NCBI GenBank assembly: GCA_032358255.1
Contig: JAULBX010000892.1
Span: 93,865-157,864, forward strand
Length of the DNA stretch: 64,000 nt
DNA from: Heterotrichella gracilis
Taxonomy: Eukaryota; Sar; Xanthophyceae; Tribonematales; Xanthonemataceae
Reading direction: 5' to 3'
This document shows positions 592 to 62,357 of the stretch, piece after piece (within the stretch, counting starts at the first letter, position 1; every line of letters begins with the position of its first letter). A program made the position numbers and the translations under genes. The notes under the pieces were generated by a model, which saw only the letters and a program-made list of their open reading frames with translations, did no database searches and had not been told where the DNA came from.

Positions 592-3500
592 TCAGGTAGC
601 CACCGCCGAGGATGACTGCTGCTGCGACTGCACCTTCCTGATGTGCTGCTTGGTGCTGATGTGCACCTTGAGCTCATCTACGCTGTGCACACGCACCTTG
701 CACACCTGGCAGGGGAGGGCAAGAGTGAAAAACGGAAATAAAGAAAACTGTTATGCTCATACCATCCATTTTTTTTTTGTTTAAAAAGGACATGAGAAGT
801 CTAAAGATCTATTTCCCTGTAAAGTACAACCAACAAAATCCCGTACAGATAAAACACACAGGATTATTCTTAATTTTGCACTTCAAAGTCGCCTGGCAGG
901 CCAATATCCCACTGGCACCATGCAAAGCTATACAATCCCCTGCACCGAACGCCCCCATCCACATGCCACTGGCCAACTCACGTCGCATGTGTAGCTGGGC
1001 GCATCCGACCCCCCCATCTGCTGCGCCGCCATGGCCTCATGCGCGTACTGCATGGCCGCAGCCGCATGCGCGTTCCCCATGGCCCCGAAATCCAGGGCGC
1101 GCATGGGGGGCGGGCGGGCGGGGTGGTACTGCATGTGCGGCGGCATAGGGGCGTACCCGTGGAAGGGGGGCATCGCCTTGCCAGCAAAGGCCGCGTGGGT
1201 GGGGGACCACGCCCATGCGGGGGCTGGGATGAACTGGGACATGCCGGGGGGTCCTGCGCACAACCACAGAGCGGTGAGTGCCTAGTGCGCCAGCGGGGAG
1301 TTTAGGGTTTTGGGTTTTGGGTTTTGGCAGCAGGATTCAATGAGGGGAGCATTGCTGTGGTTTTGCCGGCAGAAGCTGCATGGGTGGGGGACCACGCCCA
1401 TGCAGGCGCTGGGATGAACTGGGACATGCCCGGGGGTCCTGCGCACAACACAAGGCCGTGAGCGCCTAGAGCGCCAGCGGGGAGTTTAGGGTTTAGGGTT
1501 TTGGCACCAAGTTGAGGGAAGAATTGCTGTGGTTTTGCCAGCAGGAGCTGCATGGGTGGGGGACCAACCCCAAGCAGGCGCTGGGATGAACTGGGACATG
1601 CCTGGAGGCCTTGACAAATGTGGTCACTGATTAGAAAAATACTCGGCTCAGACGTCTGTGTTACATGTAATGGTCTCAAGGGCACAACAGGCAATGCCTT
1701 CCCCTGGAATTGTACCTTGGGGCTGCGGCTGCGGGTAGAACTGCGCAGGGTAGTAGCCCATGTACTGAGGCATGGCCGCGGCTGGATGAGGGCCCATGGC
1801 TATGGGTGGGGACAGCAGCACTGCCTGCTCGGCATGGCGCATGTACTCCTCCCCGGGCGAGGGAAACACCCGCTGCGGGTGGCCGTGCCCCTTGCCTCGG
1901 CCCCTGCACGCAGCACAGCACATCGTTATGAGTACGGCAAACAGGCAACGTTGTGTCTGCGCGGTTTAGGCATCAAGGTTTGATTGGCTTGAGGAAGGAT
2001 CCTGCAGTAAACGCCCCTGGCAATTGTCCACTATTGACAGCAGTACTGCTCACGTTGGCGAGTCGCGACACTGCATGAGCCTGGTCCAACCCCCGCCCAT
2101 CTGAATTAGGGAGTAGCATCATAAGGCTTGATGTCAGGGTTTCCAGGTAGGGTTTAATCTGCCCTTGTGCAAAGATCCCACAATATTAGGCTCCCCTGGC
2201 AGTTGCCCACTAATGACCGGTCAGGTGCAGCAGTACTCACTTTGGCGTGTCGCCTGCATTGGCATGGCCCTGATCCGACCGCCGCCCATCTGCTCTGCCG
2301 TTGCTGGCGGGTGAAGGGCTGTCTGCGCCGGCACCGTGGCCACCATTTGCATGCCCATACACATCCTGCGCCAACAATCATGTAAGCAAGTGCAACTCAT
2401 ACAAGAGTATCCAAGAGCCATTGGCCTGCCCATACACATCCTGCGCCAGCAGAAGTTGTACAAAAGCAATCAGCGCAGGCAAAATTATACAAGAATATTA
2501 GCCATGCAACAGCCACCGGCTTGCCGGTACAGGTCCTGCGCCAGCAAGTCACACAGAGGGATCAGTGCATGCAAGCGCCAATTGTCGACCAATGAAAAAG
2601 CACAAATTAGTAACCCTCTGATTTCTAATTCCCTCCCCACCTTCCTCGTGGGGCTGTGCTGCTTGCCCCCCTTGCCATCCACCTCCACAATGGTCTACAT
2701 AACTGCTTTTGCATGCATGCGCACCTCTGCCCATACACATGATGAATGCCAGAAGGTAATGCCATGGCGCCACTGTGTAACTTCAAGTGCTGGGGGGTAA
2801 TGCTGGAGTGCACATCATTGCTGGTAGTTAATTGTTTAATCATGAAACCCTTACTAGTAGAGTTCTGATTCCTCCCCACCTTCCTCGTGGGGCTGTGCTG
2901 CTTGCCCCCCTTGCCTCCCTTGCCATCCACCTCCACAATAGCCGCACCATCCACCAAGTGCTGCACACTGTGGTCCTCCACCTCCTGATAGGCCATGGCC
3001 ATGCCCTGCATCTCCTCAAGGTAGTGACCTGCGCAACACAAACGTAACATGTTGAGTAATGAGAAGGCTTGCCAAGACAGGCCTGGGCGGGGCAAGCTGT
3101 GACTTTGTAGGTGCTCCTTGAAGGCAGAATAAATTTGCACACCCTGACACAGGAGAAAAGCTTTCTTAAATGTTCCAAGCGGCTGTCAAACTGTCTGAAA
3201 AAACGTCAGTAGATACAATGGGTACATGCCCCATCGCCCCACACATAGACAACACAATGGGTACACGCCCCCCCGCCACCAACCCGCCACCTGCCATCAT
3301 GACTCACGTAGGTCCATGCTGGAGGGCAGGATGACGTCCCCAACCCTAACGCAGGGGAAATTGTCGTAGATGTTGCCGGAGGGCTGGCGCAGGACTGGGC
3401 GTTGCAGAAAGGCGGGGATTCCCGACCCCTGCTTCTCCAAGAAGGCGGGGATCCCCGACCCCTGCTTGTCCAGGACCATCACTGGCGGCACCAGCACCGG

Positions 3501-6500
3501 GGACTCGACCACAACCTGCGGGGATGGTTACAGATGGATTACATCCCTCCCTAGTCCTTAGTGCAGACTGACTGCTGCGTGGCGTCGCATGTGCAAGACT
3601 GACTACTAACCTGGCTGTATTGCTGGAATGCATGTAACTAACTGACTAAGTAACTTTAGTCCTTAGTGCAGATAGAATGGGGCCCAATGAGCCCTATTCG
3701 CATAGAGACTCTGCAGATCCTCATCATGCTCAACGATGATGTAGATATATGCATGTTGACAAACAAACAAGAGGACATTCTTCTACCATGCGATGGTAAC
3801 CTCTTGGAACATGTTTGTCATTTTCAGACAACTTGCCAAACGCACATAAAGGTTAAGGAACATGTAGGCCCTGACCTGCGCCTTGGTTGGGCTCCCTGCC
3901 TCGCTGGGGCTTCAGGGTTTGGGGTTTAGGGTTCAGGGTTAAATACTGATCTGCGCCTTGGTTGGGCTCCCTGCCTCGCTGGGGTTTAGGGTTTAGGTTA
4001 GGGTTTTACACTGACCTGCGCCTTGGTTGGGCTCCCTGCCTCGCTGGGTGTGGCTGATCCAGACCCTGCTCCCCGCGCAAGCTTGTGCACGCGCCGCTGG
4101 TGGCGCCTGCCCATGGGCTATGTGCTCAGTACCATGCATTCAAGCAGATGAAGAGGAGAAAACGGAATGCGCATTGCGAGTCAGGGAGCGCAAGTGCAAG
4201 CCAAGAAGCTCACATCAGGGCACCAAGTTGCATGCATTCGGAGAACACAGCATGGACTATTTCTGGCCAGGCTCCCCGCGTCAGCTGCGCACCCGCCGCT
4301 GGTGCCGCCTGCACCCTGTAGTTACTTATTTAGCTGACCATTTAGCAAGAAAGGGACGGGCAATGTGGCGCTGAGGGCCGCGAGTGCAATGTATGCCCAT
4401 GTGGGGGTCCTTAGGCTCACCTGCCCCGGTAGTGGTCCAGCAAGTTGGCCTCGCTGGTGGCGATAATGTTGCACGCCTCGCAGACCCACTTGCCCTCTGG
4501 TTCAGCCTCAGAGGCGCCCTCGGGAGCCCCAGTGGGTGGGGCTGAGGTGGAAGCGGAGGGTGTGGGTGTGGGCTCAACAGGCTGTGCGGGGTCATTGGGG
4601 TAGCGGGGCGGCAGGCGGGTGCTGGGCGATGGCGCCTGTCACACCGCACACGCACCATCCTCACTGTTCAATACTTGTAGAACTATTCACACCCTTCTCA
4701 GTGCTCACTATTACTCGAATTCCTACCCTGAGTAGGGTGTTGCATGGCGCCTGCTGCCCGTCTTTGGTGGGTTGGCATTGTGCCTATGCATATAACCAGA
4801 GCTGTAGTCCTCTATTCCACTTTGAGGCGGTAAATACTCAAAACTTCGACCCCAGACCCTAGTCCAGCCCCGCCCCAACCCACCTGGATAACCGCAGGGC
4901 CAGGCTCCTCCGCAGCACTGCTGTCTGCTGTTACCACACCACTGCCTGCATCCTCGACTTCATGGGCATTGCCCTCACTCAAGGCCGCCCCATGCACCCG
5001 CTTCTGATGCCGCTCGCCCCTACGGGTGGAGATGGAACCTGTTGAGATGCGCCATGTGCTGTGCGGTATATGCAGGTAACATGCGTTCACATGCCAGTGC
5101 ATTGCGTCGGTGCGTGCAAGTGGCACAATATGCAATGCATGCAGCTGCTCCCCATATCAAGTCCAAGCGGTGCGTACAGCAGGCACATAGTCATGCCCAT
5201 TTTGCAAAGCCAGCCAGTCACGTGCGCCAACCAAGTACATGGTATTACTGCAGATGCTCCCAATCCATGCATTAGTGCATTGCGTGCGTACCGCAGGTGC
5301 TTGCGCCCAATGAAGTGCATCTTGAGCTGCTGCTCGCTGGTGGCGTAGATGTTGCACACGCCGCAGTAGTAGGGCGTGATGCTGGGCTGCCTACAGAAAT
5401 GAAATTAATTAAATTTAACTCCAAATATGTCGTATAAACTGTAAATTACTTAAAGAATTTTTGCGGACGTGGCAAACTATGGCGCAACGATCAGAATTGT
5501 GAAATGTGAGCTTTTTACTTTACGGAGCTAGACATGGTTGATTTGATAGAATGGGTTAAGGGTACAACTGTAACAATTTTCAGTTGTCTATTGCTGGTAC
5601 CTGGCTGACGACCCCGTGCGCTCCTGGTCCGGCCGCTCGCCCTCGCCCTTTTGCAGCGCCAGGGTGCGCTTCTGGTGCTTCTTGCCGGTGTAGTGGCCCT
5701 CCAGGAGCTGCTGGCTGGTGGTGTAGATATCGCACACCTCGCACCGGAACGCGGGGAGCTCGAAGCTGACCTCGGGCAGGGCCTGGCCTAGCGCGTGCAG
5801 CGCGGCCGCAATCTGCATCGAGGCGCAATAAAAAAATCAAACATTGCAAAAACTAAAATTCGAAAAGTCAACAGTTAGAAATAATGCACAGAGGCGCAAT
5901 TTTCAGGAATCAAAGCCAGCTGCATGTCCTTGATTATGGACCTGCCAATGCCTATTTACATGCGGTTGCACCGATAAATGCCAGCTCCATTCATTTTGGG
6001 CATGCAAGGGCCTCTACGTTCCACAAGCTAATATAAGGCCCAGAGCCATCATGGATTACCCTGGCTTTACCAATTGCCACTGCCAGCCCTTGGTATAAGC
6101 CAAGATGCCAGGACATGGCTAACTGGCGCAAGGCATCCAGGCCGGGATGTTGATAAGGCTGTGATGCTGGAATGCACGTAATTAAACAAATGCCACGGCG
6201 TCCCCCATTACATGCAACCCCCAACCCACCGCTCTGCCATCGGTCGCCAGCCTGGTGGCAAACAGAGGTGCCCCTTGCAAGCTAGTCCCATGCTGCACCC
6301 CCCCACATACGCGCCAAAGCATGTTGTCGCAAGGTATCTACAATCAACTGCTAATATGGCTGCGTTGCTGAAACGCATGTGTACTTCCTACTTCAGTATA
6401 AATCAAGAACCACCTAATGTCATCCCATGTCATCTGCTACTCCACCCATACCAACGCACCGCTCTGCCATCGGTCGACAGCCTGGCAGCAAACAGGGGCG

Positions 6501-9293: not shown

Positions 9294-10520
9294 ATGGCAG
9301 ATTACGTGCACACATACGTGGGGCCAGAAGGCGAGACCACCCAGTGGGATGACATACAACGAAAGCTGGGGAACTTGCCGCCCAAGGAGGCGGTGTGGAA
9401 GCCAGAAAGGTTTGCACCAGAACCGGAACAGGCCAAGGACACAGAATGGCTGAATGGCAAGGACAGCGACGAGCTGGCGGAGCTGGACGATGAGTGTGCA
9501 GACGACCGCTTCTTGGAACAGTACAGGTGAGACAGGGAATAGGGACCATGAAAACCATACTTTATGTATGTGCCCCATTTCGCATGCATGCATGCATCTG
9601 CCCAATGCATGCATATTGGCTGGCGCAATAGGGCTTTGATTGCCGGGTATGCTGTTGCGTGGCAGGCAAAAACGCTTGGAGGAGTTGCGAGAGGCTAGCA
9701 AGCAAGTCAAGTTCGGCACCCTGGAGGAGATACGGCGGAATGAGTTTGTGCAGAAAGTGACCAACGCTGGCGAAGGGATCTACGTTGTGGTCCTACTGTA
9801 CAAGGACAGGTGTGCCTCTCTCAAAGCCCACAAGTGGCTTGCAATAATTTGTGATTTTATGCGTTATAAATGTAAATTTTTGGTGCCCGCGCAGTTCGCA
9901 GGAGTGTGGGCTGATGCAGCTTTGCTTGGAGGAGCTTGCAAAGAAGTACCCAAGCTCAAAGTTTGTCAAGATCATATCAACCGACTGCATCCCCAAGTAC
10001 CCTGACCAGAACCTCCCCACCTTGCTGCTGTACCACGACACCAAGTGCCTGCAGCACATTGTCGGCCTGGCGCCTTTTGGAGGGAAGCGCATCACTCCAG
10101 AGTGTGAGTTCACATTGGCGCTTTTCCAGTTCAATTGCAGCCTTACTGATCATTTATACCATTGCAATGAGTTGCCCCATCACTGATGCAATGGGCGTGA
10201 TTGCAGTGGTTGCGCTGGGGCTCAACCTGCATGGGCCGGTGTGCAAAACAGGGAGCGATGAGGAAGACCGCGAGCTACTGTTTGTAAGTGCCACACTTGA
10301 CTGCCACAGCAACTTGTCCATTCGCCAATGGCATTTTAATTAATACTTGCATAAACTCTTGAGAGCCTGCAAACTGCTGCATTGCATTGCGTCATTGACC
10401 CGCATGGGATGCATTACAGTGTCGTTTGTTGCTTACTGTTTATCCCCCCTTGGATTGAAGGGCGTGATGAAAAAGTTCTTGCTGGAAAAAGAGCAAGACG
10501 ACGATCACGGCGACGAGTGA
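9294..10520 (+). CDS. PDCL3: Phosducin-like protein 3 (thioredoxin-fold CCT co-chaperone)
   Basis: Exons 9294-9526, 9666-9809, 9895-10103, 10207-10283, 10461-10520 give 240 residues, the usual length. The N-terminus has the family's TQWDDI...LPPKE segment. An acidic, Glu-rich helix with KRLEELR follows. The phosducin thioredoxin-like domain starts near EFVQKVTNAGEGIYVVV and contains ISTDCIPKYPDQNLPTLLLY and a GG-x-RIT segment. The C-terminal tail is acidic. Family members bind the cytosolic chaperonin CCT and help fold tubulin, actin and other clients; the catalytic thioredoxin cysteines are absent, as expected. The ATG opens the conserved N-terminal motif. The gene is divergent from the zinc-finger gene. 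Its stop lies only 143 bp from the convergent OST1 stop. Confidence 0.9.
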
Positions 10521-10663
10521 TGATCTGAACACCATGTGATGCTCTACTCGGGGTCTGCAATGCTCTACTCGATGTCTACAAGCCGTTGATCATGCTTGAC
10601 TGGAACCCAGCCAAGGTTCACGGCAGAGCTGCCTGGTTGCTTCTAAAGCAGCTGCACCACATC

Positions 10664-16824: not shown

Positions 16825-16898
16825 CTCAAGATTCTATCGATATCAGTTTTGGACTCCGAGTGACTGAGGATTACACTGTGAACTTTGCATAGCAAAGT

Positions 16899-45700: not shown

Positions 45701-48700
45701 CCCAGTTATTTACCCTTTTTATTGACATTTTAATCATTGTCATTGGCAACCTTCCTGACAAGTCCCTCCAGCACGTTGTGCACGCCGATGGCAAGCGTCA
45801 CCAGCAGGCCCTGCACACACACGCAGTTGCAGATCCTTTTAGCAGGTGCGGCAAACACCTTATTGGCAGCTGTACTGTATTGTGTACGAATATTGCTGCT
45901 TTTGTTTCGAGTGCAAGTTAATAATTACGCGCTTGCAAGACACCATACCGTAGGTGTATTTACAAGCTTGTGAATCCACATTTGAGTGGACGTAGCAGCA
46001 AGGGCCAAGTGACAGTAATCATTGCTCGTAACTTATTAATCATTTTATTGGCTACGAGTGGCTGGGAATGGCTAGGCAGCACAACCAGCAAAATACGCCC
46101 TTTGCCCTCCCTGCGTCCAGCCTTGGTAAACCCTAAGCCCTTAAACCCTGGAACAAACCCTTCACATATCTGCGCCCTACCTGCGCCCAGCCGCGGTCGC
46201 CCGAGTAGGACACCCCCACGCCGCACCCCTCGCCCAGCGCGTGCGCCGCCATGATGCCGATGATAAGCAGCGTCTTGCGCGCGCTGCTGCCCGTTAGGCT
46301 GTCAAACTGCACGTCCTCGTACTGGTCCAGCCAGGCCTTACAGGCTTTGATGAAGTAGCCCCCCAGGAGGACGCCCAGCACCGTGAGCGCGGCGCCGTAG
46401 GGCTGCCCCTCGTGCACCAGGTCGAAGCTGGCGGCCAGCATGACACCACAGGCCACTGCATTGGGACACGATTTGGGCTGTAAGTAACTGCCGCCGCCTC
46501 TTCTATACCCCGCTGTCCCTGTACCTGCAACTCGCTGGGGCAGGGGCAGCATCCCCGCAGCACAGACGTGCAGAGCATGCACGCCCACATGCACCAGACC
46601 CACAGGTTTCCATGGTTGCTCTTAATAAATAGATGTTACATCGGTGCTTGTCTCAGAGATTCATGCCATGGCCAGCACCTGCATTGTGCATACTAGGCAG
46701 GGGGTGAAGGGGAAGGGGGGCATGCACGTATGTACCTGCGCTGGCGATGCCGTTCCACTCCTTGGACAGCTGGCCCACAAAGAAGAAGGGCACCGCACCC
46801 AGCCCACTTGACACCGCCATGATGATGGACAGCAGCGCCACAGTCAAGACGGGCACCTTGCGCGCTGCATCTTTGGCCTCCTGGTGTGCGATGTCATCCG
46901 GGGTGCGGATGTGCACCTCGGCATGTTTGCCCCCCTCGGAAAGCACCACATCTGACTCTGAAGGGAAATGCGCTCTGGTGGCTTGGCCCTGGTGGTGCGT
47001 GGGTTCCAGGGTGGTGTGTGTTGGCTTGCTGCTGTCTGTGGGGGTGTCGGTTGTTTCCACTGCGTGGGTGGCGATGGTGGGAGCACTGGGCTTCTTGCGC
47101 TTGCCTGCAACATGGGCTGCATTAGTTACAAGAAATTCGGAATAATAAACCACATGTGAGCAATGCCAAGACAATGCTGAGTGGCGCATGCTTGCACGAG
47201 GCTCCCTGCTACTGTGGCCGCTCTGCACATGGAATGCATGTGACCAGTTAGGACACAGCTGAGTGGCACCTGCATGGTACATGCTGGGATGCATGCAAAT
47301 ACCAACTGACCTGCAGCAGCCTCCCGCAGCTGCGCCCTGAGAACCTTGAATGCATTGTCATCATTCCGGTAACACCTAGGGTAAATTCTACACTACAGAC
47401 CAGTAGTAAACACAAATGGTGCCAGCAAATTTTATGCTGTTTGTCTAATTTGCACCACTGGTATGCATGCAAGGAACGAACCTGCTGCGGCATCCCGCAG
47501 CTGAGTCCTGAGCGCCTTGAATGCAGCGTCCTCATCCCCAGCCTCCCCCGCACCCCCAGAACTGCCCCGCTGGTCGGGATTCTGCACATGGTCCTCCCCC
47601 TTGCCCTCCCCTTGCGCGGCATGCCCCCCTTGTGATGCATGCCCGTGCACATCCAGCGTGGGCTCCCTATGCTGCTCCTGGGCAGGGTTGTGGTACCCCG
47701 CTGGGTGAAGGGGGTCGGTGGCTCCAAGGGACACGTCTGCCCTGTGGTGGACATCTAGAACTGGGTGGCGCACATCCAGCACCGGTTCGTGCACCTGCGG
47801 GAATGGTGCAGGTAGGTGTCACGGGGATGCAAATAGGTGTCGAGGTGGTGCCTCAGAGCAGCCCACTAAGGAAGGTGCTCCACTGCTGTGATGCAGTGGA
47901 TGAGGAAAAGTTACAACCATGCACTCCTGGCTGTGTAAGGGTAAGCGTCCAGAACTGGGTGGCGCACATACAGCATTCGCACCCGCACCCGCAGGAATTG
48001 GGTCACAGGCGTGCTGACTGATATGCATGCTACAGCTGTGCATGGGTGACTATCCTCAAACGCCCCAGTGACCGAAAATTGCAGGATCAAAACAGCCTGG
48101 AACACACTGCCTGGCGGCACGAAGGTGCAAGGCTGGCTGTATTGCTGATTGCATGCAACTGGCTGAATTGTCACTGACCTGCAGCAGCTGGCGGCGCTTG
48201 TGGAAGAGCGACTTGAAGGGGACCTCATATGGGTACACCTCCCGGGCAAAGTCTGGTAAAGGTACCGCATCCGGCGGCTCCACCACCACCTCAGGCGCAT
48301 CCTCCACCGGTGTGGCTACCAGGTTGATGGGACCAGCAAACTTGTCGCGCGGCTGCTGCTGCCTGGTGGGCTGCGCGGCCTGTGGGGAGTCTGTCAGTGC
48401 CAGCTGGAGGGCTGACTGCAGCATGTGAATCTGTGCATTCTGCTGCTCCCCACCCCCCACCACCTTGACATTGGCATCCAGCTGCTTTCCAGCCTTGGCT
48501 GCCTCCGCTTTGACCTCATCGAGGTGGAGAACCTGCTTCAGGTTGGCTGCCAGGGTCTCTGCAACGTTCTGATAGGCAACAGTGGGTTTCTTGACCAGCC
48601 CAGCTTTCTTGGCAGCTGCTTCAATAGCTTCCTTGACGATTACTTCGTTCGTAGGGGTGCCAGGAGCACGGGGCTCGTCTGGGGCCAACAGCTTGCCCTC

Positions 48701-49998: not shown

Positions 49999-52900
49999 AT
50001 GCCACAGTTTGGTGAAGTGTTTCGAGGCTTTGGGAGCGACTTTGGAGCTGCTTCGACTCCAGGAAGCTATGATGGTAAGCACTTTCTAGCTTGGCCCCTT
50101 GGCCCAGTGCCTTGCAACCAAAACGCTCGCTAAATGGCCGTGCATTGCAGCCCCCATGCAGGTGGACGCAGCTGGGCCCAGTGGCACAGGCATGGACTGG
50201 CAGTTTGGCACCCCAGCGTATGGAAACGCAACACTGGCAGCAGCTCGGAACGACGACGCGAACCTGATCAGCGGAGCATGGACTCCTGACCCTAGTATAC
50301 AAGATGGCGGTCGGATGGCGAGCCAAGGTGACCCTGCATTTCAGTGCTGATGAGAAGCATATTTCAAGCACATCATGCCCAGCATCGTGCACCAACACCT
50401 GCTACAACAATAGGCCCTGATAAGCACACTGAAAAGGCGCAATGCAGTGGGTTGGCCCCCACAGCAGTAGTTTCGTAATGAAGCCCAGGCTATTGAGCTG
50501 GGGTGCTTACCCTGGTGGGGCGTTGTGTACCGGGTATATATTGTTTTTAGTGCTTTTTTATTATTATGCATACGCCTAACTTCAATAATCAAAAGTCATA
50601 CTGGGTCCAGGCAGCGTCCACAAAGCTGGTATGCAAGTAAAGTATGGAGTATGCTTGGCCTTTTTTCATCATGCCTGGAGGTCAATGGATGAATACCAAC
50701 AGTTGCTCTGACATATCTTGGGTGCTCAGTACTGGAAGTTATACTGACTACAGGGCCCATGGGCGCAGGACCGACTGCTGCCTTGGCTAGCGTGAGGTCT
50801 GAGGAGAAGCAGTTTGCCTGGGCGCTGAAAAGCATGATGCTGGGGGAGGTCAACACAGCGGAGGCTATCAGGCATTTTGCAGGCCAATGCAGGCAGAGGG
50901 CAGCTATCCTAAGGTAGGCTTTGGATGAGCTGCTGTTGCTGCTTGAGAGTGCAGACCATGTACTCTTTGCTTGGCCACGGATTGCCACTCTCGCAATGCA
51001 CTCGGTTATATAGTTATATACATGCGCTACAGCAATATAGCCATGTAACAAGTCTGGCGTGGAGGCCATGCGCCAGCAAGCCCGTGCGTGGCTCATGCCC
51101 TCAAATTGCATTTTTGCCACCCTGAAAAATGCCCATTCAACCAGAGGCAAGTTGCATTTCCACCACCCTGAAAATATGCCCGATTGGCTACAGGCAAGCG
51201 GCTTCGGCTGAGCTTGGTCGAGCGGCCCGCTACATGACCCTGCGCAACCAGGCCGACGAGCTGGATGCAGAGGCCGCCACGTGGCACCTGCTGTGGTTCC
51301 TTTTCGGGACCGATGACTCGGCGTTCCCAGGCGGCACGGGGGGATTTGGCGCCCCTGGATGCGGCAGGTATGCAGGCATCCTATGGATTGCAATGCCAAA
51401 AAAATCAGAGCATCCTCTTGAGGAGGGTCTAGCAAAGGGGAGGTGTGTAGGACACATGTTGTGCATGCAATTAGCCTGCTGTGGTTTCTTGTCGGTCCGA
51501 TGTGCGCTGTTCCCAGGGGCCACGGGGGATTTGGCGCCCCTGGATGCGGCAGGTATGCAGGCCAGGCCCATAGGCTGAGCATAGAAGTCATTGAGACATG
51601 TGGATTGTGCCAGTATGAAACATATGCATCCCCAATGCTGCACGAGCGAAAGTGGATAACAAGGAGTGGATGCAGCCAGCACTTTGCGCAAAGTGCTCCC
51701 GTGCACTCACCTGGCGCTTCATGATTTAGCTGCGTTGACACCGCGGGTGCTGAGATGTATAAGCGGTCTGTGGCCAGAATTGGTTGGCTCAAGGCATGTA
51801 GGACCGACTGCTAATCTGGCTGTGTGCTGATGGAACGGATGTACGTAAGTAAACATGGTGCGCACTCAGGTATCGGACCGTGGCTCAGCGGGCTGCAGAC
51901 ATTCTCGCGGAGGATGGGACGTACAACCGCTGCGCGCGCACCGTGGCATGGCTGGAGCACTTGGCGGCGGAGGCGCTACAGGGCGACAACTCACCCGCAC
52001 GGTAGGGTGTTTTCTCCTTTTCATCATAAAACAGGATAGGGTAGTGGGCACACAGGGCATCGCATTGGCTCAAGGGGTCTTGTAAGACAGCCTGTTGGTC
52101 TGGCTGGATTGTGGGAATGCATGTGATTACTAAAGCAAGCACGGTGGCATGGTTGAAAGGCCTGGCAGCTGTGCGTGCAAGATTCAGCGCATATTTGAAG
52201 GGCATATTTGAGGGGCCTGGCAGCTGTGCGTGCAGGATTCAGTGGCCTGCATGTGAAGGACCCTTTTGCTGAGAACTGATTGCCCCCGCATGCAGGTCAT
52301 TTGCGCGGCAAGACGGCGTATGGTTGGATACCAAGAACGCCATCGCCCAGCCTGGCAGGGCAGCAGGTAGGGTTGGACCTTGGCAGGTCAAGGCAATCAC
52401 AGGGCAAAGCACTTACAGTATTGTTGCATTCTACTTTGTGACACAATGGCGCCATATGCGGCAGTGCACAATTCAATGCATTTCCCGTCAACGGTTGGTG
52501 CGCCCCATCTCTCTGTGCTGTACGCGCCTGAGCTGTCGGGCAATGACAACACACCATTACCTTCGTATAATTCTCAAAATTTTTTTTTTTTTTATAAACT
52601 CAACTGTACCCATCCTCTGCTCCCGCATATTTTTCATCGTCCTACACACACCACACACCATTGCCTTTGTAAGTTTTCTAGGCCTTTGCTTTTACGTACC
52701 GTACATGTACCCCCCCCTCTGCTCCCACAGCCGCCCTGGTGACGGAATTAGATCCAGATACCCCCACCCGCCAGGATAAGCAGCTTGCGACCGACAACAA
52801 AAAACATTTCTTTTGCACCACTACCTTATATTTTTTTATACTCTTGTGTCCTACACACAGTACACACCAATTACCTTCATAAAACTTTGTGTAGTTTAAT

Positions 52901-55900
52901 TATGTTGTCTGTACCAACTCTCCATTGCCTGCAGCCGCCCTGGTGACGGAATTAGACCCCGACGCACCCACCCGCCAAGACAAGCAGCTTGCGACCGACA
53001 ACATCAAATCGGAGGAGCGGCTCCTGAGTGCTGTGTGGCGCCTGGTGCGCGCTGGGAGGGTGGATGAGGCCTGCCACCTGTGCGTGGAGTGCTCACAGCC
53101 CTGGCGCATTGGGTCGCTGACAGGTAAGGCTGGAGAATATTACCGTATCAGGGTTGTATGTGTATATATGAAGGGGCACCCAGCATTCTGGGGGTCATTC
53201 AGGCATGCCCGGGAAATAGTGAACGTGGGGACGATGCCTTCAAATGTTGTTTCCTTATATCCTTTTTTCATCTTCAGTTTTGTTTTTACTCTTTGCCAAC
53301 TCCTTTCTCTAATGCATTCGGCGCTTCAAAGGCAGGCTATGTGGCCATTGTGTTTGATTTTGTTGTCCGCTAATTTCCCGCTAAATTCTGCTGACAGGTG
53401 GCGGCCTGCTTGGACCCCTGCCGCTGGGGTTGGCAGCGGAGTTGCAGGATGACCTTGCGCCAGATGGCGAGCAGCTGGAGGAGGTTGCGGCTGAGGTGGG
53501 TGGTGTTTTAGGGTTTAGGGTTTAGGGTTTTAGGCCACCCACACCTGTGTGAAGAGCTGGCGGCTGAGGCGGGTGTGCAGTAATTCAGCATTGCCCCGCA
53601 ACGATAAGGATGGCATGCGTCTCTGCAAGGTGCACTGCTATCCATCCCTTGGCCCAAACACGCCATGATTGCCAAACCTTTTACATTTTATTACCCCAAC
53701 AGGTGATGACAGGCCAGGGCACGCTGCGCTCCCTCTGGCGCTGGTCCTGCTACCAAATCTCAGAAAAAGCCGCCGCGGCCAGCGACTCCCGGGGACAGGC
53801 GGGGGGCCCAGCCACCTACGAGGCCGCCATCTATGGTGCGCTGTCCAGCAACGTGCAGCGGGTGCTGCCCGCATGTCGGAGCTGGGAGGATGTGGCCTGG
53901 GCTTTCCTGCGCTGCTGGCTGGAGACGTGTGTGGATGGGCAGCTGAAGGTGGAGAGGGACGATGGGCTGGTGCGTGGCTGGAAGGGATGGTTAGGGTTAG
54001 GTTATTTCTTATGTGGTGCTGAGCTGCATGTGCGACGCATGGCTGTTGACTAGGCATTGGCAGTGCCTGTACCTGCTGGCTGGAGACGTGCGTGCATGTG
54101 CAGATGTAAGGTGGACAAGGACAATGGGCTGGTGCATGGTGTGTGTGGTGTGGTGATGGTTAGGGCCTCGGGTTTAGGATTAAGCCGCCATGCATGAAGT
54201 AGCGGAGAGCGTTGGACGTCCTAAACCATATATCATTATCACGTTTGCCGAGGGGTCAGGACAAAGCCGTTGCTTTAAAAACTCTGATCATTGTTTTGGT
54301 ATCCTGCAGATCAGCATCGATGACCTGGTGCGGGCAGCCCAGAGCTCCCAGGGGCTGCACTCCAAGGGGCGCGATGTGGCGCAGGGCATGGCGGCGGTGC
54401 AGGGCGGGTGGCCCCTGCAGGCGGTGCGGGAGCGCCTACCCACAGGCAAGCTGATGGTTTTGCTCACCCTGTTTAGGGTAGGGTTTTGGGTGCGGCTGCA
54501 GGCAGTGCAAGAGCGCCTACCCACTGGCCTGCTTAGGGTCCTATATCTGTGCGGCTGCAGGGTAGGTCAGGAATTAAGTGTATTTTGAGAAATTGTTTGA
54601 TTTTTCATGTTGGTTTCATCTTTGCTGAAATATGATATCGACTTTCCCATACAGACCTAGCGGGCGCCCTTGCGGAGGCCGACCGGGTGCAGCTGCAGTG
54701 TGCGCCACCTGGCGCCTTTGCCGCCAAGCAGCGTGCGGTGCAGCGGGCGCTTGTGCTGGGCCAATTGGATGACCTCATTGGGTCGCAGCTAGTGGACTGG
54801 GTGCTCAAGGTGTGGTGCTGTTGGTGGTGGAACTGGTATGGTTCTGTGGGTGGAGGGTATTGGTGGTGGAAAGGGTACGCATGGTTTCAATTTGACCACA
54901 ATCGGCCCTATATTGCAAAAAGTCGTCCGTCAGGAATTGACCAAGCTGGATGAGTTCATTGGGTTGCAGCTGGTGGACTGGGGGCATACGGAGGGGTGTG
55001 TGGGAGGCGGAGGGAGCTGAATACCTTGAGCCAACCTTACGGCCAACCAGTCTTTCTACAAACCAGAAAGGCCACGTCTAATGGTGCCAAATGAAACCCT
55101 AAAACCCTTCCAATCTGCCTGCAGCCTGAATCGGAGAATGATGAAAGCAGCATGAACGGGAGCGACACCGAGGTTTCCCCCGTGCTCCTGCGCTTTGCTG
55201 CGCACCTGGCGCTGGCGCTGGATGGTGTTGGTGTGCTAGGGGAGTCCATGCGCGCCAGCCACAAGTACAACACCCTGCCCGACTACTGCAACAGGATGGT
55301 GCAGGTAGGTGCCGAAAGGGTCGATAGCATGTTAGGGAACCCCTTTTTGGATGTAGATTTGATTCAAAATATAACATATACCAAGGTTTCTACCCTGTGA
55401 TGGCTACAGGTGGGTGCAGTGGGTGGTGCAGTAGGGGAAGGCGGGTGCACGAGGCAAATTCTATGTATGCGCTTGATGACCGTATCGCCAGCATCTTAGC
55501 ATGCAATTCATAGAGAGCCAGCAGTGTGAGCTAGCACCCCTATAAAGATGGTGCCCTGCACAGCTCCCTGCGGGGAATATCCCATGAGGTGGTCTTTTAG
55601 CTGCTGGCCGCACAGGCCAGCACCACCACCCACCTGTCCCTACCCACTACCCCCCCCACCCCCACCCTCACAGGTGTACATCATGTACCTCATAGAGAGC
55701 AAACAGTATGAATGTGGTGCCCCTGTACAGCTGCCACCTGCGCCAGGACCTGCGGGAGATAACCACATCATTAATTACCCATGGCCCCACGCAATACACT
55801 CCATTTTTTACCCTAAAATGTGGTCACCACCTTCACTAATCACCATTTTTACCCCCCCGCAGGTGTACATCATGTACTTGATTGAGAGCGAGCAGTACGA

Positions 55901-58900
55901 GCTGGTGCCCCTCTACAGTTGCCACCTGCGCGAGGGCCTGCGGGAAATAACCTACGAGGTTTTCTTCGAGCTGCTCACCGCGCACGCCATCAGCGACGCG
56001 CGCATGGCGTACGAGCAGGCGCGCGCGTGGTTTGAGGAGTGGGGGGAGGGGGACATGCGGGAGGGGGAGATGGCCATTCTGGCGGGCAAGGTGCGCGGGA
56101 TTTCCCTGTGGTTATTAGAGACCCTCCTTGTGTTTTGTAGGGTATTTGGTGTGTTATGAGTGGAGGTGTCTAGGGTTTTAGGCTGTACGGCGTACCAGCA
56201 GGCGCGCGCGTGGTTTGAAGAGTGGGAAGAAGGGGACATGCCGGAAGGGGGATGGGCACATCAACATCTCCCATAAAGCCCTATGGGATTGCCACTGAAC
56301 CACTGCCTAAAAACCTAATCCCTGACCCTAACCCTTATCCCGCAGGTCACCCGCAGCGCGCACGCCAACACCCGCAAAGGCCCTGCTTTCCGAGCCCAGG
56401 CCGCGCGCTGGCTGTGCTTTGTGGATGGGCCCCCGGAGCCCCTGCTGGAGTACTGCAATGCGCTGCTGCGGGAGTTTGCGCTGGGGGGCATCGGCGGGGC
56501 ATCGGCGGCACAGCAGCTGCTGACCCAGGTATGGGGGCCCGATATGTATGGTTTGGGTACCCCAAGTCGCCTATATACCCGAAACCCTAGCTGCTCATTT
56601 ACTTTTTTATTTGCTGGCTCAGATTTTGCCAGAGGAGCTCGAGAAGGAGCTGGCTGGAGGGGTTTCAAGTTTATTGTTCCATCTCATTTTCTGTACAACT
56701 TTGGGGGTTCTGCTTATCGCGTTTATTTATGCTGACTCAGGTACTACCTGAGGCGCTTGGGGATGAGGGGCTGGCGGCTGTGTTGGGGCAGGGAGAGGAG
56801 GAGGGTTTGGCGGCTGAGCTCGGCATGTGGATGCACTACTTTGATGCCCAGCAGGCATACGAGGTGGGTCCGAAACTCCAGCACCCTAATCCTAAACCTT
56901 AAACCTTTGAGCCTTCCCTGAACCACCTACCTGAACTTGTAAGCTGCCATGCTGTGGACAGGGGTGTGGTGAGACTGTGTCAAGGGTTTTCACAGGGACC
57001 TCACAAAAAAGGAGGTTTAGCTCAATAGCTCACAAAAAGGGAGGTACACATATATGCAGCACGTTGCAAGGGGTTTCGCCTGGCGTGGTTAGGGTTTTGG
57101 TAGGGTGGCAGACGCTTAGCGATGCCCCACTGCCTCAGAGGAGTCCGTACTGGTGTCGGATCAGATGGGATCGGATGAAATCACAGTATTACAAACCCCT
57201 GTCGATTGCCGGAATGGGTCCACCTGATGACATGCTGGTGTACCAACCCTAAACCCTTAACCCATACCCTAAACCCACGTGCACAACAGTGGCGCAGTTG
57301 TATGGGAACAGAGCATTTGACAACGCATTCACATATCTCCGCGCATGGCTGACGCGCACCCTCCCTTTCTGTGCAGGAGTGGGCGCAGCTATACGAGAAG
57401 CTGGTTTCGGATCGCCCCGAGGGTCCCAGTGGGTCTGAAATCCCGCTGCTGGTGGGGAGGGCTCAGGAGGTGCTGGGTGGTCTGATGGGGCTGGTGCAAG
57501 CGGATGAGCTTCAGGCTGTGGCTGCGGAGGGGGGCGCGGGGGCGGAGGGGGGCGGGGAGGTGCTGGTGCAGGTAGTGGTGGCGCCTGATGCCGGGGAGGG
57601 GGCTGCTGCGGCTGTGGAGGTGCGTTGGTGGGGGATGAAGGGGGGTGGCGGGTATTGCAGCATTTAGCAGCTGAATTGCTCATGCATGAAGCAGTGGACT
57701 CCCTATATATGCATGTACATGCTGCACATGCGCCATATCGTGTAAACCCTAAACCCTAATCCCCTCATGCCCGTGTCCACATCTAATGCATGTGCTCACA
57801 GTATCCCATGCATTGTAGTCGGCTCCATAGCCTGACCCTGCACCTAAAACCCTGAATGCAGAACGCACAATGACACACGAGCACATCGTTACCACAAACC
57901 CTAATGGTAGGATTCATTCCATTCAGCTTCCGCAGGACGGGTCCTCCTACCTCTACTCGACCCAGAGGACGCTGCCGCCTTCGCCGCCAGCCTCCTAAAA
58001 CCCTAAAACCTTGACATTCTATTTAAGACCTCTGCTCACATCCAATCATGTGTATCGTTGTGTGCTTAAGCCAACACCCCCTTTTTATCAAGTATCTGCA
58101 TCAATCAGCGGCTGGTGCTGAGTCATTCCATTCCCTTCCACTGTGCAGGACGGGTCATCATACCTCCTACTCGACCCAGAGGACGCCGCTGCCTTTGCCG
58201 CCAGCATCCAGTCAGACCTGAGTGCAGTGCTGGCCACCTTTGGCAGCGAGGCCCAGTGTACAGGCATCTCCATTAGCGCGGCGCCCGGGGAGGGGGGGAG
58301 GGAGGGGCTGGTGGTTGTGCGGCTGGAGGGCCCGGCTGCGCTCCAGGCGCCCATCGGGCAGTTGCTGGAGGCAGCTATCAAGGGGTCTCTCACCCAGGCC
58401 GACCTGCCTTCGCTGCATGTGAGTGTTGGTTACTGTTTGGGTCTTTATAATACGGCCGGCTCCGCTTGTTGGGAGATGAGGTGGGCCAGTTTGGGTTATA
58501 GACTGAAAGACAGCTGTGGGAGGTTTAGGGTTTAGGTTTAGGGTTTAGGGTTCAATGATTGTACCCCATGTGGCCTGCAGCAACCCCTCATGGCTAAGAC
58601 TGGTTGCACAACCCCTCACCGCTGCTGCGCAAAATGAGAAATGGCGTTAAGAACAAGCCCTTTTGAACCGTTGCACTGCCCATGTGGCGCACCCCATCAC
58701 CTCAGCACCCCACCCGCCACGACCCCCCTCCGCCCTCACAGGTGGCGAACTACCACGGCCCGCCGGCGCTGCTGGCCTCCACCTGCCGGGCGGTGTGCTA
58801 TCCCTCGCTCCTCCTGCGCTGCGTCACGTTGCGGCGCGCGATTGTGCAGCTGGGCGGCCTGACAGACGTTGGGGAGGAGGCGCTTTTGGCTGTGGCGGGT

Positions 58901-59717
58901 GCCGACGGCTGTAATGGCTACAACGGCATGGCGCTGTACTTCTCCCGCCAGGAGCTGCAGGTGGGTGGTGGGGTTGTGGTAATTGCATGCAACATGGAAA
59001 TTTGAGCATGCTGTTTTGCGGTGTCGGGTGTAACGGCTACAACGGCGTGGCGCTGTACTTCTCCCGCCAGGAGCTGCAGGTGGGTGGTGGGGTTGGTTGG
59101 GTAGGGGCATGCGTCCCATTGCCAGCAATGTTGCCAGGTAACCTGTCAGCCTTGCATGCCAATCACGCGATTTGTATACCTTTGTTGTTGATCACGCCGT
59201 TTTGCAAATGCTTTGGATGATATGGCTGCAACTGGTGCAACGGCATGGCGCTGTACTTCTCCCGCCAGGAGCTGCAGGTGCACCACGTGGGTGCTGTGGT
59301 CTGTGGTGATTACATGCGTCCAGCAGTGTAGGGCCAGTTTAGCGGTCAGCCTTGCATGCGAAATTAGCAGTTTGTATACCTGTTTTGTTCAGCATGCTGT
59401 TTTGTTGGTGCTGTGGGTGCAACGGCATGGTGCTGTGCATTCTTGTAAGGCGCAGTGCTGCTCAGGTGGGTGCTGCAGTGTGGTAGGTAGTCGGTTAAGT
59501 TAAATTTAAATGAGAGGTCATGGCTGATCAGCCTCGCGCAAATAGTGGCATCCTGGCTTGCCCAGAAGGCATCTAGGGTTTGCCAGGAGCATCTAGGGTT
59601 TGCCAGGAGCACGTGCTGACTGTTGCCCTGTGGTACCCCCGTGTGCAGGTTCTGCTGGAGACAGAGCGGGAGACGGCTGTGGCTGCTCTGCAACAACCAC
59701 CGGCTGACACCGACTGA
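49999..59717 (+). CDS. NUP107: Nucleoporin NUP107 (Nup84 homologue)
   Basis: Nineteen exons: 49999-50074, 50151-50327, 50754-50913, 51194-51367, 51870-52001, 52296-52366, 52935-53123, 53398-53495, 53703-53969, 54310-54445, 54655-54809, 55125-55304, 55863-56090, 56346-56528, 56741-56863, 57377-57619, 58149-58418, 58742-58960, 59649-59717. They give 1049 residues, close to plant Nup107 (about 1080). It is an alpha-helical scaffold of the Y-complex of the nuclear pore. Diagnostic segments are EECSQPWRIGSLTGG-like (exon 7-8), SLWRWSCYQISEK, YEAAIYGALSSNVQRVLP and SWEDVAWAF (exon 9), and YIMYLIESEQYELVPLYSCHLREGLRE (split here for brevity; exon 13). The N-terminus is Gly/Phe-rich (MPQFGEVFRGFGSDFG). 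The intron after exon 10 needs a GC donor. Introns are full of exon-edge copies. Confidence 0.93.
51473..51556 (+). repeat. Copy of NUP107 exon 4 donor edge
   Basis: About 83 bp repeats 51286-51372 (ctgctgtggtt..tt.tcgg ... cctggatgcggcaggtatgc), including the donor. Confidence 0.92.
52610..52800 (+). repeat. Copy of NUP107 exon 7 acceptor edge and its polypyrimidine intron
   Basis: 52731-52799 repeats 52931-53003 (acceptor plus about 68 exon bases, roughly 90 percent by eye). The preceding intron text (cctacacacaccacacaccatt...) is also repeated from about 52850. Confidence 0.92.
53510..53572 (+). repeat. Copy of NUP107 exon 8 donor edge next to (TTTAGGG)n
   Basis: A run of tttagggtttagggtttaggg (53508-53533) is followed by a copy of the exon 8 end (gagctggcggctgagg.gggtg, 53553-53573; true end 53478-53500). 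Confidence 0.85.
54062..54180 (+). repeat. Copy of NUP107 exon 9 donor edge
   Basis: 54075-54142 repeats 53911-53980 (tgctggctggagacgtg.gtg ... gatgggctggtgcrtgg) and is followed by ggttagggcctcgggtttagg. Confidence 0.9.
54488..54540 (+). repeat. Copy of NUP107 exon 10 donor edge
   Basis: The core gagcgcctacccac(a/t)gg of 54415-54450 recurs at 54492-54530 after a gtttagggtagggtttt tract. Confidence 0.85.
54930..54990 (+). repeat. Copy of NUP107 exon 11 donor edge
   Basis: ttggatgacctcattgggtc (54765 onward) recurs as ctggatgagttcattgggtt at 54947, with the following cagctggtggactggg. Confidence 0.9.
55505..55770 (+). repeat. Two copies of NUP107 exon 13 acceptor edge
   Basis: The nearer copy (55674-55765) keeps the acceptor and about 85 exon bases. 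The farther one (55508-55595) is more decayed. The true acceptor is at 55862. Confidence 0.92.
56180..56255 (+). repeat. Copy of NUP107 exon 13 donor edge
   Basis: 56188-56252 repeats 56006-56070 (cgcgcgcgtggtttga.gagtggg) after a tctagggttttaggc tract. Confidence 0.9.
56612..56665 (+). repeat. Decayed copy of NUP107 exon 15 acceptor edge
   Basis: ttatttgctggctcagattttgcc at 56608-56632 resembles ttatttatgctgactcaggtactacc at 56725-56748; coding-side similarity continues 20-30 bp. Confidence 0.7.
57930..58000 (+). repeat. Copy of NUP107 exon 17 acceptor edge
   Basis: 57950-57996 repeats 58146-58203 (gcaggacgggtc.tc.tacct ... gccgccagc) and runs directly into cctaaaaccctaaaacc. Confidence 0.92.
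59010..59470 (+). repeat. Three copies of NUP107 exon 18 donor edge
   Basis: The exon end (true 58905-58965) is repeated at 59020-59090 and 59222-59282, each with the ccaggagctgcaggtg junction, and in decayed form at 59405-59470. Confidence 0.95.
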
Positions 59718-62357
59718 GTGCAGCTTCAAGGCCTGCTCTAGCCTGAGCCCGAGTTCTGCTGCCATGCTGGCTAGGGGACTGGGAATCCGGTGCGCGCAAT
59801 CCAGGCCCCTACATGCGCGCAGCAGCGTTACGGCGCCTGCAGGGTCCTACTAAAGACAGAGGCGAGTGATGTGGAGCTCTAGAGCGCTGTCGTTGTGGAA
59901 ACGGCTGTTGCTGCCCTGCAACGGCTACAGGCTGAGTGAAGCTGCAAGGCTGGACCTCGCCTGAGGGTTATGCTCCCATGCTGGCCAGAGGACGGGCTGC
60001 GCAACCAGGCTCCTACATGTGTGCAGTGCTTGTATGTGGTCGTACAAGCAGCTGTTAGGCGCCAGCTTCCTAGCCTAGCAGTGCTGTGGCTGCGCGTGGC
60101 AGGAGCAGGCACAGGTTGCGCGCTGGGGCTGGTTTGTGCAGGCGTGGCATGCCATGCCACGTACCGTGTGCATGGGGTCGGGGGTGGCGAATCGACCCTG
60201 GTCGGTGGCGTGCAGCTCGGGCGTGAGTTGCTGGCTGTGACTGTGGCTGTGGCTGTGGCTGCCCTGCAAGCACCCACAGGCTGGCATAAGGGATTGCCGC
60301 TGGATTGTCAATAAATCTTAGGGCACCAGCATAGGCAGCGCTTGCTTTCAAGTACACTGACACACTGCTTGTGCCAGTGGGGTACCAAGGACAGCCTCTT
60401 GCTATGGTGTATGGTACCCTTGCCTGCGTACCTGGACCCTGTACCTGCCTGATGGCCCGTTCACCTGTATGAGAGGAGGTCCCCTGGGGTGGCTCTCCTG
60501 CTGCTGCCACAAGGGCCTTGTAACAACCCTAAGGGTGTCCATGCATGTGGAAGGAATAAACAGTGATACGTAGTGGGCCCCTCGGCTGCTAGCTCAGCTG
60601 CTAGCAACTAGCCGGGCACTAAGGCACAGTGTGGATGGCTGAGGGCAGTGAACAAGGTGGTACAACGCGGTGGCAAAACGTTAGATTATGGTACCACTCG
60701 TATCATTGGCAGGGGCATGGCAGGGCAGGGGTATTGGTGCCCAGTCGCCACTTATCTGAACCCTGCAGCTACCCATGGGAACCCACTGTAAAACCCTAAA
60801 CCCAAAGGAAGGTTACCCTGGTGCCCACTGGGCGCCTGCCTGTTAGGCTCTCTCCCTCCTCCAGACCATGGTGGTGCCTTCAATACCCCAAGTAGCCTGG
60901 GCACCAACCTGTAGGGCTGAGGCCATCAGTGAGCGCCGGTAGTAAGAAGGTGCTTGTTCGGCCACCGCCCTGCCTGTTGCCCAGCTTCAGGCTTTCTTCC
61001 TCCTCCACACCATGGTGTTGCCTTCACAATACATGTTGGCAACCAGTAAGGACGCTTGCGAGCTGTGATATGTGCGCCATGGCGAAAGCCAACACCGCCT
61101 TGTGTGCAGGTTGCCCTTTTGGCTGCCTCGAGTACAGTCAGGTCGCAACGTAGCACTCTCACCGAATACTCTTCTAGCGCTTCACCGTATACATACCTCC
61201 TACCCAGGCTGGCCCTTACGAGACGGGCTAGGCTACGACTCCGCTTGCAATTTTAGGCAGCATGACGACCCGACGATTTGTAACGCTGCCAACAGTCACA
61301 GAGGTGAATCGGTGCGGGGCCAGCCATTGACATAACCTCATCCACCAGGTACACCAACTGGCGCTTTGTAGTGACGACGCCACATGACGGTGCGGTGACC
61401 GCCGCCGTACCCTTGACGCATGCATCGTTATTTGTCACACTTCCAAGGCGCCGTCGGTCGCTACCTCAGGGATTCATGACGTAAGGTGACGCTAGGTGTC
61501 GTCAATTTTGGCCCCTCTCAAACTTCAACAGTCCGAAATTTGTCAATCACATGGTGGGCCATTTGAGTTGAGGGGGCTTGCCAACATCTATAGCGCCATT
61601 CGAGGGGCCTAGAGCCAAATTGCCCACTGCCAATCGATATAGCCCCCGTGTAAAATGTGAATTTCCTTAGTAGTCACCAGTAGCTAGTCGAACAGGCCGC
61701 CTTGTACCAGCTATGTATTTTTGTTGTCTCAAAGGTGCGCGCCTCGCTCTTCAAAATGGATGGAATGACTGTGTACTGCCTTTGGATGGGCCCTAGAGAG
61801 GTTGGTCTCCTTTCACAAACCAGAGAGCGCTGGCATAGCTGTATTCAGCGCATCACAACCTCAAGGTTCTATTTGCTGCTGCATCGGAAACAGCTATCTG
61901 ATAGCCTCCCTGGCTGCTTTACAATTGTCCGTTGGCGCCCCTGGCTAGGTTGTACCAACTCGCAGCACCGTCAAACCTCCTACTGGTTTACCAGCTGGCT
62001 TTTCGTGTTTCCAACACTATTGCTGCAACGCATCTCTAGAGATAGCCGAGGTATGGTTGCGGGCCAAGCGCACGGACGCCGCAAGAGCTTTGCCCAGTGC
62101 ACGTGCGCGTTGGTCATGACGCAATTGCCCCCCCCTCACGCCAGTTCACCTACCGTGGCACTCGAGCTCGTTGCTTGCCCATGACCGTATCCCCAACCCT
62201 ACAGGATTGGCCCTGCAAGCGGAAACACCTGAGCGTGTGGCTCCCCGCAAATATGTGGGCGCTTACATAACGGCCCGGGCTGCATCGTGGGCCAAGTCAG
62301 ATCTGGTTCACCACATCGACTACCACGCAGTACAACGACTCGAAGCAGGCGCCCAGC
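59718..62357. other. NUP107 3' flank and intergenic region
   Basis: 59885-60035 is a decayed copy of the NUP107 last exon plus 3' UTR (59660-59830); another fragment is at 60230-60290. TGTAA is at 60519-60523. A direct repeat of about 55 bp links 60835-60890 and 60963-61025 (cctcctcca.accatggtg.tgcc core). The rest, 61030-62357, is AT-richer with no recognised gene; the ORF at 61702-62184 has no family resemblance. Confidence 0.5.

Follow-up and report, generated by a model that had tools for sequence, protein, structure and literature searches.

We analyzed a window of 64,000 nt (C11:93865–157864) from the genome assembly GCA_032358255.1, entered as Heterotrichella gracilis, in which introns carry direct-orientation copies of the edges of their own flanking exons. 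The first-pass annotation of this window had described such copies in a set of named genes, and our scan found them there: the introns of the zinc-finger, Psb27, DUF1995, ClpF-like, FKBP, ZIP, and NUP107 genes hold copies, as do introns 34240–34581 and 34730–34907 of the nucleolin gene. Altogether, 46 own-edge copies were present; they occupy 34 of the 85 introns of the window that exceed 80 bp. Pfam, applied to these genes except nucleolin, recognized the predicted proteins as Psb27, DUF1995, YccV/UVR (ClpF-like), FKBP, Nup84/Nup107, and zf-met, and the match of the ZIP gene (30.8 bits) was below the Pfam cut-off of 35.1.

Sample and gene models

The sample of 314 kb consisted of the window plus 200 kb from contig C2 and five pieces of 10 kb. 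The whole assembly (68.5 Mb, 903 contigs) was covered by pattern searches. Junctions were taken from a gene finder self-trained on the sequence, which gave 371 introns in the sample and recovered ordinary donor and acceptor consensus sequences. Six exon predictions in the window were copies of neighboring exon edges and were deleted from the models; the inspection for such predictions was confined to the window. The scan of exon edges against their own introns used the 357 introns longer than 80 bp (14 of the 371 were 80 bp or shorter), and the scan with 40-nt exon tiles left out the 45 introns under 120 bp. The analyses of repeat pairs (random shifts, intron or exon side, anchored spacers, and location and age) were confined to periods of 60–280. 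The minimum spacer was 15 nt in the anchored test and 25 nt in the telomere-likeness and gapped tests; in the last of these, 22 of 98 pairs were dropped because the spacer resembled the copy itself, leaving 76.

Local direct repeats

A BLASTN comparison of the window with itself gave 48 direct pairs and no inverted pair; 47 of the 48 lay within 2 kb and all within 5 kb. In C2 the same comparison yielded 69 direct pairs, of which 50 were separated by 400 bp or less; its 23 inverted pairs were all more than 600 bp apart. With a sensitive search, 71 direct pairs and 1 inverted pair were found within 1.2 kb in the window, against 0 and 0 in its Markov-shuffled copy; the corresponding numbers were 102 and 10 for C2 and 8 and 2 for the five small pieces together, and shuffled copies of the searched sequences gave no direct pair. 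Direct 12-mer matches gathered at lags below about 250 bp, inverted ones were scarce beyond 50 bp, and repeat periods dropped steeply past 250 bp. Among 141 local direct pairs, 22 were intergenic and 22 were intron-only. The duplication process is therefore not confined to genes and extends outside them.

Direct repeats that flank inserted material close to splice sites are also expected if a mobile element, or a family of introners, makes long target-site duplications on insertion. No text was common to distant loci in the window, where every BLASTN pair was local, and the repeats vary in length from 15 to 94 bp. Furthermore, two young loci in which unrelated DNA (F) parts the two copies of a duplicated segment (D), giving the order D-F-D (window 23336–23586 and C2 190960–191260), matched only themselves in the 68.5-Mb assembly; these were the only two searched, and very common words were skipped. 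We consider a mobile element highly improbable, in keeping with the earlier statement that the copies are neither introners nor transposons, of which we saw no sign in the window self-comparison or in the genome search with the two loci.

Junction focus of the copies

In the 314-kb sample, 86 of the 357 scanned introns carry a copy of an edge of their own exons (59 donor-side and 39 acceptor-side), which bears out the proposal of local direct duplication at exon edges. The expectation from foreign edges was about 0.1 per side (foreign-edge null, 0.0004). When the own edge was searched in inverted orientation, the two sides gave 1 and 0 matches, and control text 100–172 nt upstream of the donor had a copy in the intron in 4 of 356 cases. 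Pairs of a junction copy and an intronic copy numbered 22 in the window (9.3 ± 3.1 under random shifts) and 41 in C2 (12.9 ± 4.1); none of 300 shifts reached the observed count in either sequence. The junction copies lay on the intron side in 88 cases and on the exon side in 13.

The first-pass annotation had named, as the finding that would speak against it, that other intervals are copied as often as junctions. Instead, the number of copied exon tiles fell with depth: 51, 31, 20, 8, 7, and 3 of 325 on the donor side, the last value lying 120–160 nt inside the exon, and 37, 25, 18, 7, 3, and 3 of 324 on the acceptor side, with 0–4 in foreign introns and 0–4 in inverted orientation as controls. 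Most copies keep the splice site, as had been claimed: GT was retained in 45 of the 57 donor-edge copies (from a total of 70) in which both bases are aligned, and AG in 33 of the 42 such acceptor-edge copies (from a total of 47). The claim that copies nearer the exon are better preserved fared less well, since this was seen in only 10 of 15 multi-copy introns, a weak trend.

The intron across the exon from the copied junction held a copy in 0 of 263 cases for donor edges and 1 of 263 for acceptor edges. Because the copies occur only in the intron that adjoins the copied junction, these results point to duplication in place rather than transport of pieces. They bear on templated insertion, in which a break in the intron would be repaired by copying a nearby exon edge through polymerase theta or microhomology-mediated template switching, the spacer being original intron. 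Such a process accounts for the anatomy of copy plus spacer, and most spacers, not being clearly telomeric, could be old intron. It would, however, be expected at times to yield inverted copies, copies of exon interiors, and copies in the other neighboring intron, and the respective counts are 1 and 0 for inverted own edges, near background for interior tiles, and those just given for the far intron. Nor does it predict the bracketing of telomeric tracts by repeats described below. We regard templated insertion as improbable.

Telomere-like tracts

Telomere heptamers are enriched in introns. Averaged over the seven rotations and read in gene sense, CCCTAAA occurred 88 times and TTTAGGG 68 times, against 10.6 and 11.8 for controls of the same composition, an excess of 8.3 fold for the C-strand and 5.8 fold for the G-strand. 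Exons were at background, and intergenic DNA was 2.2 (C) and 1.5 (G) fold up. In total, 120 telomere-like tracts were found in 81 of the 371 introns. Of these tracts, 38 (20 C and 18 G) started within 30 nt of a donor, where 11.2 were expected. Within 40 nt of an acceptor, 18 of 21 tracts were C-strand in gene sense; we suppose that TTTAG would act there as a false acceptor.

Direct repeats bracketed 41 of the 120 tracts at p of 0.02 or less (2.4 expected; the other 79 were not bracketed at that threshold), and control positions in tract-free introns were bracketed in 18 of 246 cases, itself above the 5 expected. The bracketing repeats measured 15 to 94 bp, and the median gap between repeat and tract was 3 to 8 nt. 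In 19 cases the left copy spans the donor, and in 7 the right copy spans the acceptor. A copy of the same edge followed 26 of the 38 donor-proximal tracts and preceded 12 of the 21 acceptor-proximal ones, compared with 23 of 215 tract-free introns. The earlier statement that telomere-type tracts accompany the copies stands in part: a tract lay between edge and copy in 44 of 117 cases (10.8 ± 3.1 for random intervals), and most spacers are not clearly telomeric.

Across the whole genome, tracts 0–12 nt after the donor pattern CAGGTRNG numbered 253 (C-strand) and 344 (G-strand), against 68 and 83 at 60–72 nt. The corresponding acceptor-side pattern (745 at 5–25 nt versus 318 at 85–105 nt) was left unused, because CCTGCAGG is palindromic and donors read backward are mixed into it. 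The genome also encodes a TERT RNA-binding domain. Serial units of donor plus telomere tract, repeated in tandem with periods of about 44–112 bp, were seen at C23:72994–73244, C129:72847–72959, and C106:21541–21621.

Origin of the junction focus

The focus on junctions could be merely apparent, with duplications arising everywhere, those inside exons purged, those inside introns decaying twice as fast, and no targeting. This explanation addresses the focus only and is compatible with any of the mechanisms. It is in line with the intergenic and intron-only pairs and with the smooth thinning of copies with exon depth. When ages were crudely matched (junction/intron pairs of at least 90% identity against intron-only pairs of at least 80%), the contrast shrank to 11 versus 4, for a random ratio of about 0.6–0.7 to 1, an excess of junction pairs that is suggestive, not decisive. 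On the other side, pairs of at least 85% identity comprise 23 junction/intron pairs and 1 intron-only pair, where 7.1 and 9.3 were expected. Moreover, the tracts, which were detected independently of the copies, still show their peak in the 30 nt next to donors, and their genome-wide excess at donors is 3.7 to 4.1 fold. We think a merely apparent focus possible, if somewhat doubtful.

Intron length

The median intron with edge copies was 435 bp long, compared with 283 bp for introns without any local repeat, and 242 bp after subtraction of the period, in agreement with the suggestion that introns are enlarged from their edges. Measured from each junction to the distal end of the outermost copy of its edge, such stretches account for 16,396 of the 142,275 intron bases in the 314 kb. 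We also considered intron gain, in which the first copy would lie at the donor and the second at the acceptor of one new intron, and rejected it: pairs with both copies on junctions were not enriched (1 and 3, against 3.0 and 3.8 expected), and whereas gain by tandem genomic duplication would give a period as long as the intron, intron length minus the period is an ordinary intron length, which fits growth.

Two genes at 9294–15345 of the window, which we take to encode phosducin-like and ribophorin I-like proteins, have several introns of 82–104 bp among longer ones, with no edge copy listed; a single intron-only pair lies in this region, at 12064–12186. These short introns may show the unexpanded state.

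Proposed mechanism

We consider the best explanation of these data to be that staggered breaks occur at junctions and are repaired by fill-in and end joining, with filler that is sometimes telomeric; we give this a probability of roughly 0.6. Each event would duplicate in place a segment D of about 15–95 bp lying across an exon-intron junction, and leave between the two copies a stretch F of unrelated DNA, often 30–170 bp long (D-F-D). The event would start from two nicks on opposite strands or from a break with long complementary overhangs; both overhangs would be filled in, filler added, and the ends joined. In a minority of events the filler would be a telomere-type repeat in either orientation, as expected from telomerase or from capture of telomeric DNA. 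Duplications that fall entirely within an exon would destroy the gene and be lost. A duplication that includes the whole splice site would be harmless and survive, since on the outside the exon edge and its splice site remain complete, and F and the second copy would turn into intron. The intron would thus gain one period, about 80–250 bp, at its edge per event, and repeated events would leave serial decaying copies. Exon copies outlast intron copies. Together with the purging of exon duplications, this longer life would favour the junction focus that we observe.

Several observations weigh against the staggered-break mechanism. Every junction was predicted from the sequence alone by the self-trained gene finder, which edge copies can mislead. 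The contrast in intron length is partly expected as a size effect, because long introns offer more room for a detectable copy. Spacers that are clearly telomere-like (score of 12 or more) numbered 24 of 98, compared with 11 left and 8 right flanks. A telomerase polarity (G tracts at the left copy and C tracts at the right) was looked for, and no asymmetry appeared: the gaps from tract to left copy and from tract to right copy were alike in both tract orientations. Finally, when gapped alignment was used, 27 of 76 spacers resembled a flank, where about 7–8 are expected from two tests at 0.05, and so some loci would be contiguous tandem duplications.

Ordinary contiguous tandem duplications, with units of about 90–250 bp arising by slippage, template switching, or unequal exchange and with intron halves scrambled by indels until the exon part alone is recognizable, would explain these flank-like spacers, the steep drop in periods beyond 250, and pairs with essentially no spacer (window 24080–24259 and 33076–33291; C2 135568–135770). 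In the anchored test, however, the likeness of spacers to their flanks was that of unrelated DNA (top rank in 9 of 103, 8.2 expected), young pairs of 92–96% identity have unrelated or telomeric spacers (window 23336–23586; C2 181168 and 189606), and the repeat-bracketed tracts do not fit. At window 23336–23586, for example, copies that are 95% identical are parted by an unrelated spacer of 89 nt. The spacers are thus a mixture: some belong to contiguous duplications and others, young ones included, are unrelated filler. We rejected contiguous duplication as the sole explanation, since the anchored test gave no overall residual homology, and kept it as the mode of a minority of loci; as the general account it is unlikely. 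Break repair with telomere-type filler, as first put forward, is supported in part: the filler would be telomeric in some cases, and others look like contiguous tandem duplications.

The position of the tracts raises a further point against staggered breaks followed by purging. By our reasoning, purging alone would predict extra tracts at acceptors and not the donor peak. Because this peak is independent of the copies and stronger than we would expect from purging and decay, a real hot spot just inside the donor is possible. A stronger version, which we offer as speculation and hold rather unlikely, is that donors are physical hot spots of telomerase-coupled repair. Breaks would fall just within the intron, at positions of about +1 to +25. 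Telomere repeats would then be added to G/T-rich donor ends, or to the partners of these ends after fill-in, and each event would push a spare exon edge and its splice site outward, so that introns of this lineage would grow from their junctions in steps of about 80–250 bp and store cassette exons.

Features of the window and source organism

The copies and tracts of the window are collected in Table 1. The gene finder read part of the donor-edge copy at 2632..2691 as an in-frame exon. Intronic copies read as exons by the finder were 2641–2682, 22014–22064, 45751–45810, and 44320–44391; such copies are possible cassette exons, and the spare splice sites suggested in the first-pass annotation are likewise candidates.

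Table 1. Exon-edge copies and telomere-like tracts in the window (window coordinates; copies from the scan of exon edges against their own introns on the gene models).
Gene	Feature	Position	Strand	Basis or remark
Zinc-finger	Exon with acceptor edge copied upstream	982..1253	-	Gene model and scan
Zinc-finger	Copy of acceptor edge of exon 982-1253, 96% over 69 nt	1381..1449	-	
Zinc-finger	Second copy of acceptor edge of exon 982-1253, 85% over 61 nt	1553..1613	-	
Zinc-finger	Telomere-like tract, C-strand in gene sense, between exon 982-1253 and first copy	1297..1327	-	Intron 1254-1715, offset 388
Zinc-finger	Telomere-like tract between first and second copies of 982-1253 edge	1481..1504	-	Offset 211
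	Copy of donor edge of exon 2880-3028, 100% over 60 aligned nt	2632..2691	-	Gapped
	Copy of donor edge of exon 4016-4106, 97%	3945..3983	-	
	Second copy of donor edge of exon 4016-4106, 100%	3871..3908	-	
	Telomere-like tract, start 9 nt past donor of exon 4016-4106	3982..4006	-	
	Copy of acceptor edge of exon 4016-4106, 88%	4271..4312	-	
	Copy of donor edge of exon 6460-6603, 90%	6221..6281	-	
Psb27	Copy of donor edge of exon 20135-20231, 89%	20385..20431	+	Scan; Pfam
DUF1995	Copy of donor edge of exon 22222-22319, 94%	22004..22056	-	Scan; Pfam
DUF1995	Copy of donor edge of exon 23195-23412, 88%	23020..23075	-	
DUF1995	Further copy of donor edge of exon 23195-23412, 85%	22933..22986	-	
DUF1995	Copy of acceptor edge of exon 23195-23412, 97%	23523..23586	-	89-nt spacer without detected flank homology
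ClpF-like	Acceptor-edge copy, 92%	27607..27646	+	Scan; Pfam
ClpF-like	Donor-edge copy, 100% over 32 nt	28050..28081	+	
Nucleolin-like	Telomere-like tract 12 nt past donor, then edge copy 34510-34532	34537..34569	-	
FKBP	Copy of acceptor edge of exon 40840-40942, 81%	41108..41154	-	Scan; Pfam
ZIP	Three acceptor-edge copies of exon 42723-43361, 98, 93, and 90%	43417..43624	-	
ZIP	Minisatellite, 85-bp period, 3.5 copies: acceptor edge and telomere-like text	43328-43630		Clear serial case
ZIP	Copy of acceptor edge of exon 43860-44181, 90%	44334..44403	-	
ZIP	Donor-edge copy of exon 44817-45090, 93%	44622..44691	-	Intron shared with copy 44334..44403
ZIP	Acceptor-edge copy, 89%	45229..45300	-	
ZIP	Acceptor-edge copy, 85%	45756..45822	-	
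	Copy of donor edge of exon 47482-47794, 80%	47304..47367	-	
NUP107	Copy of acceptor edge of exon 52935-53123, 89%	52728..52790	+	Scan; Pfam
NUP107	Telomere-like tract 11 nt past donor, then edge copy 53551-53575	53507..53534	+	
NUP107	Donor-edge copy, 88%	54073..54139	+	
NUP107	Two acceptor-edge copies of exon 55863-56090, 75 and 83%	55500..55734	+	
	Copy of acceptor edge of exon 58149-58418, 90%	57932..57994	+	
	Three serial donor-edge copies of exon 58742-58960, 96, 91, and 77% with distance	59025..59475	+	

Part of a CP26 light-harvesting protein encoded in this genome was compared with PDB chains and matched 7pi0_S best (302 bits), followed by 9is4 (299), 6kac (298), and 8bd3 (264 bits); other CP26 chains, e.g. 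5mdx, gave about 126. We take 7pi0, 6kac, 8bd3, and 5mdx to come from Dunaliella, Chlamydomonas, Chlorella, and Arabidopsis, respectively. With these sources, the affinity of the sequence points to a chlorophycean green alga as the probable source organism. A search for the RuBisCO large subunit (RbcL) at E 0.001 gave no match in the assembly, which may therefore lack the plastid genome.

Comparison with known systems

Under the tandem-genomic-duplication model of intron gain, a newly gained intron has one copy across its donor and the other across its acceptor. The present loci resemble this model in that exon text with a splice site is duplicated in tandem, and differ from it in that there is no excess of pairs whose two copies both lie on junctions. 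They share with introners an intron content that changes rapidly; introners are a single element copied to dispersed sites, whereas each copy here is the edge of its own exon. Paired-nick and patch-mediated models have reportedly been put forward in plants (Vaughn and Bennetzen; the Puchta group).

In Daphnia pulex, staggered double-strand breaks have been proposed to lengthen new introns (PMC4202315), and, as here, intronic direct repeats are read as the footprints of such breaks. The Daphnia repeats measure 4–17 bases and lie inside newly gained introns (PMC4202315), whereas those of this genome measure about 15–95 bp, usually hold an exon edge with its splice site, lie in introns that look pre-existing, and may have telomeric filler. 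In mammals, telomeric tracts are inserted at breaks, sometimes with target-site duplication (PMC2246262). The tracts described here are likewise short and internal and sometimes accompanied by duplication. Duplication accompanied 6 of the 130 rodent cases and 4 of the 25 primate cases (PMC2246262), compared with the 41 of 120 bracketed intronic tracts here, which are concentrated at splice junctions. Fill-in of 3′ overhangs by CST-guided Pol alpha yields small tandem duplications in mammalian cells (PMC8355091) and would correspond to our proposal in making short direct duplications by overhang fill-in before end joining, with the use of a telomere-maintenance complex; it was demonstrated at induced mammalian breaks, and we infer the link to this alga. 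PMC11782384 likewise tabulates short direct repeats close to the borders of introns. Those repeats are 4–30 bp long (mean, 11.4) with one copy at each intron end, whereas here the two copies come from a single junction and one of them is intronic.

We found no report of telomere-like tracts bracketed by duplicated exon edges in the titles and abstract openings of the papers listed by our searches of open-access literature. Intron lengthening is usually ascribed to transposons or to unspecified drift, and here about one quarter of the sampled introns keep apparent footprints of growth, with telomere-type filler tied to gene structure. Both copies of each duplicate are present, and rates, sizes, filler sources, and spliceosome tolerance are therefore directly measurable in strains; the natural duplicated splice sites also offer a test of how the spliceosome picks the right one. 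Intron growth by staggered breaks and telomeric filler are each known from other systems, and it is the density of the copies and their focus on junctions that look new here.

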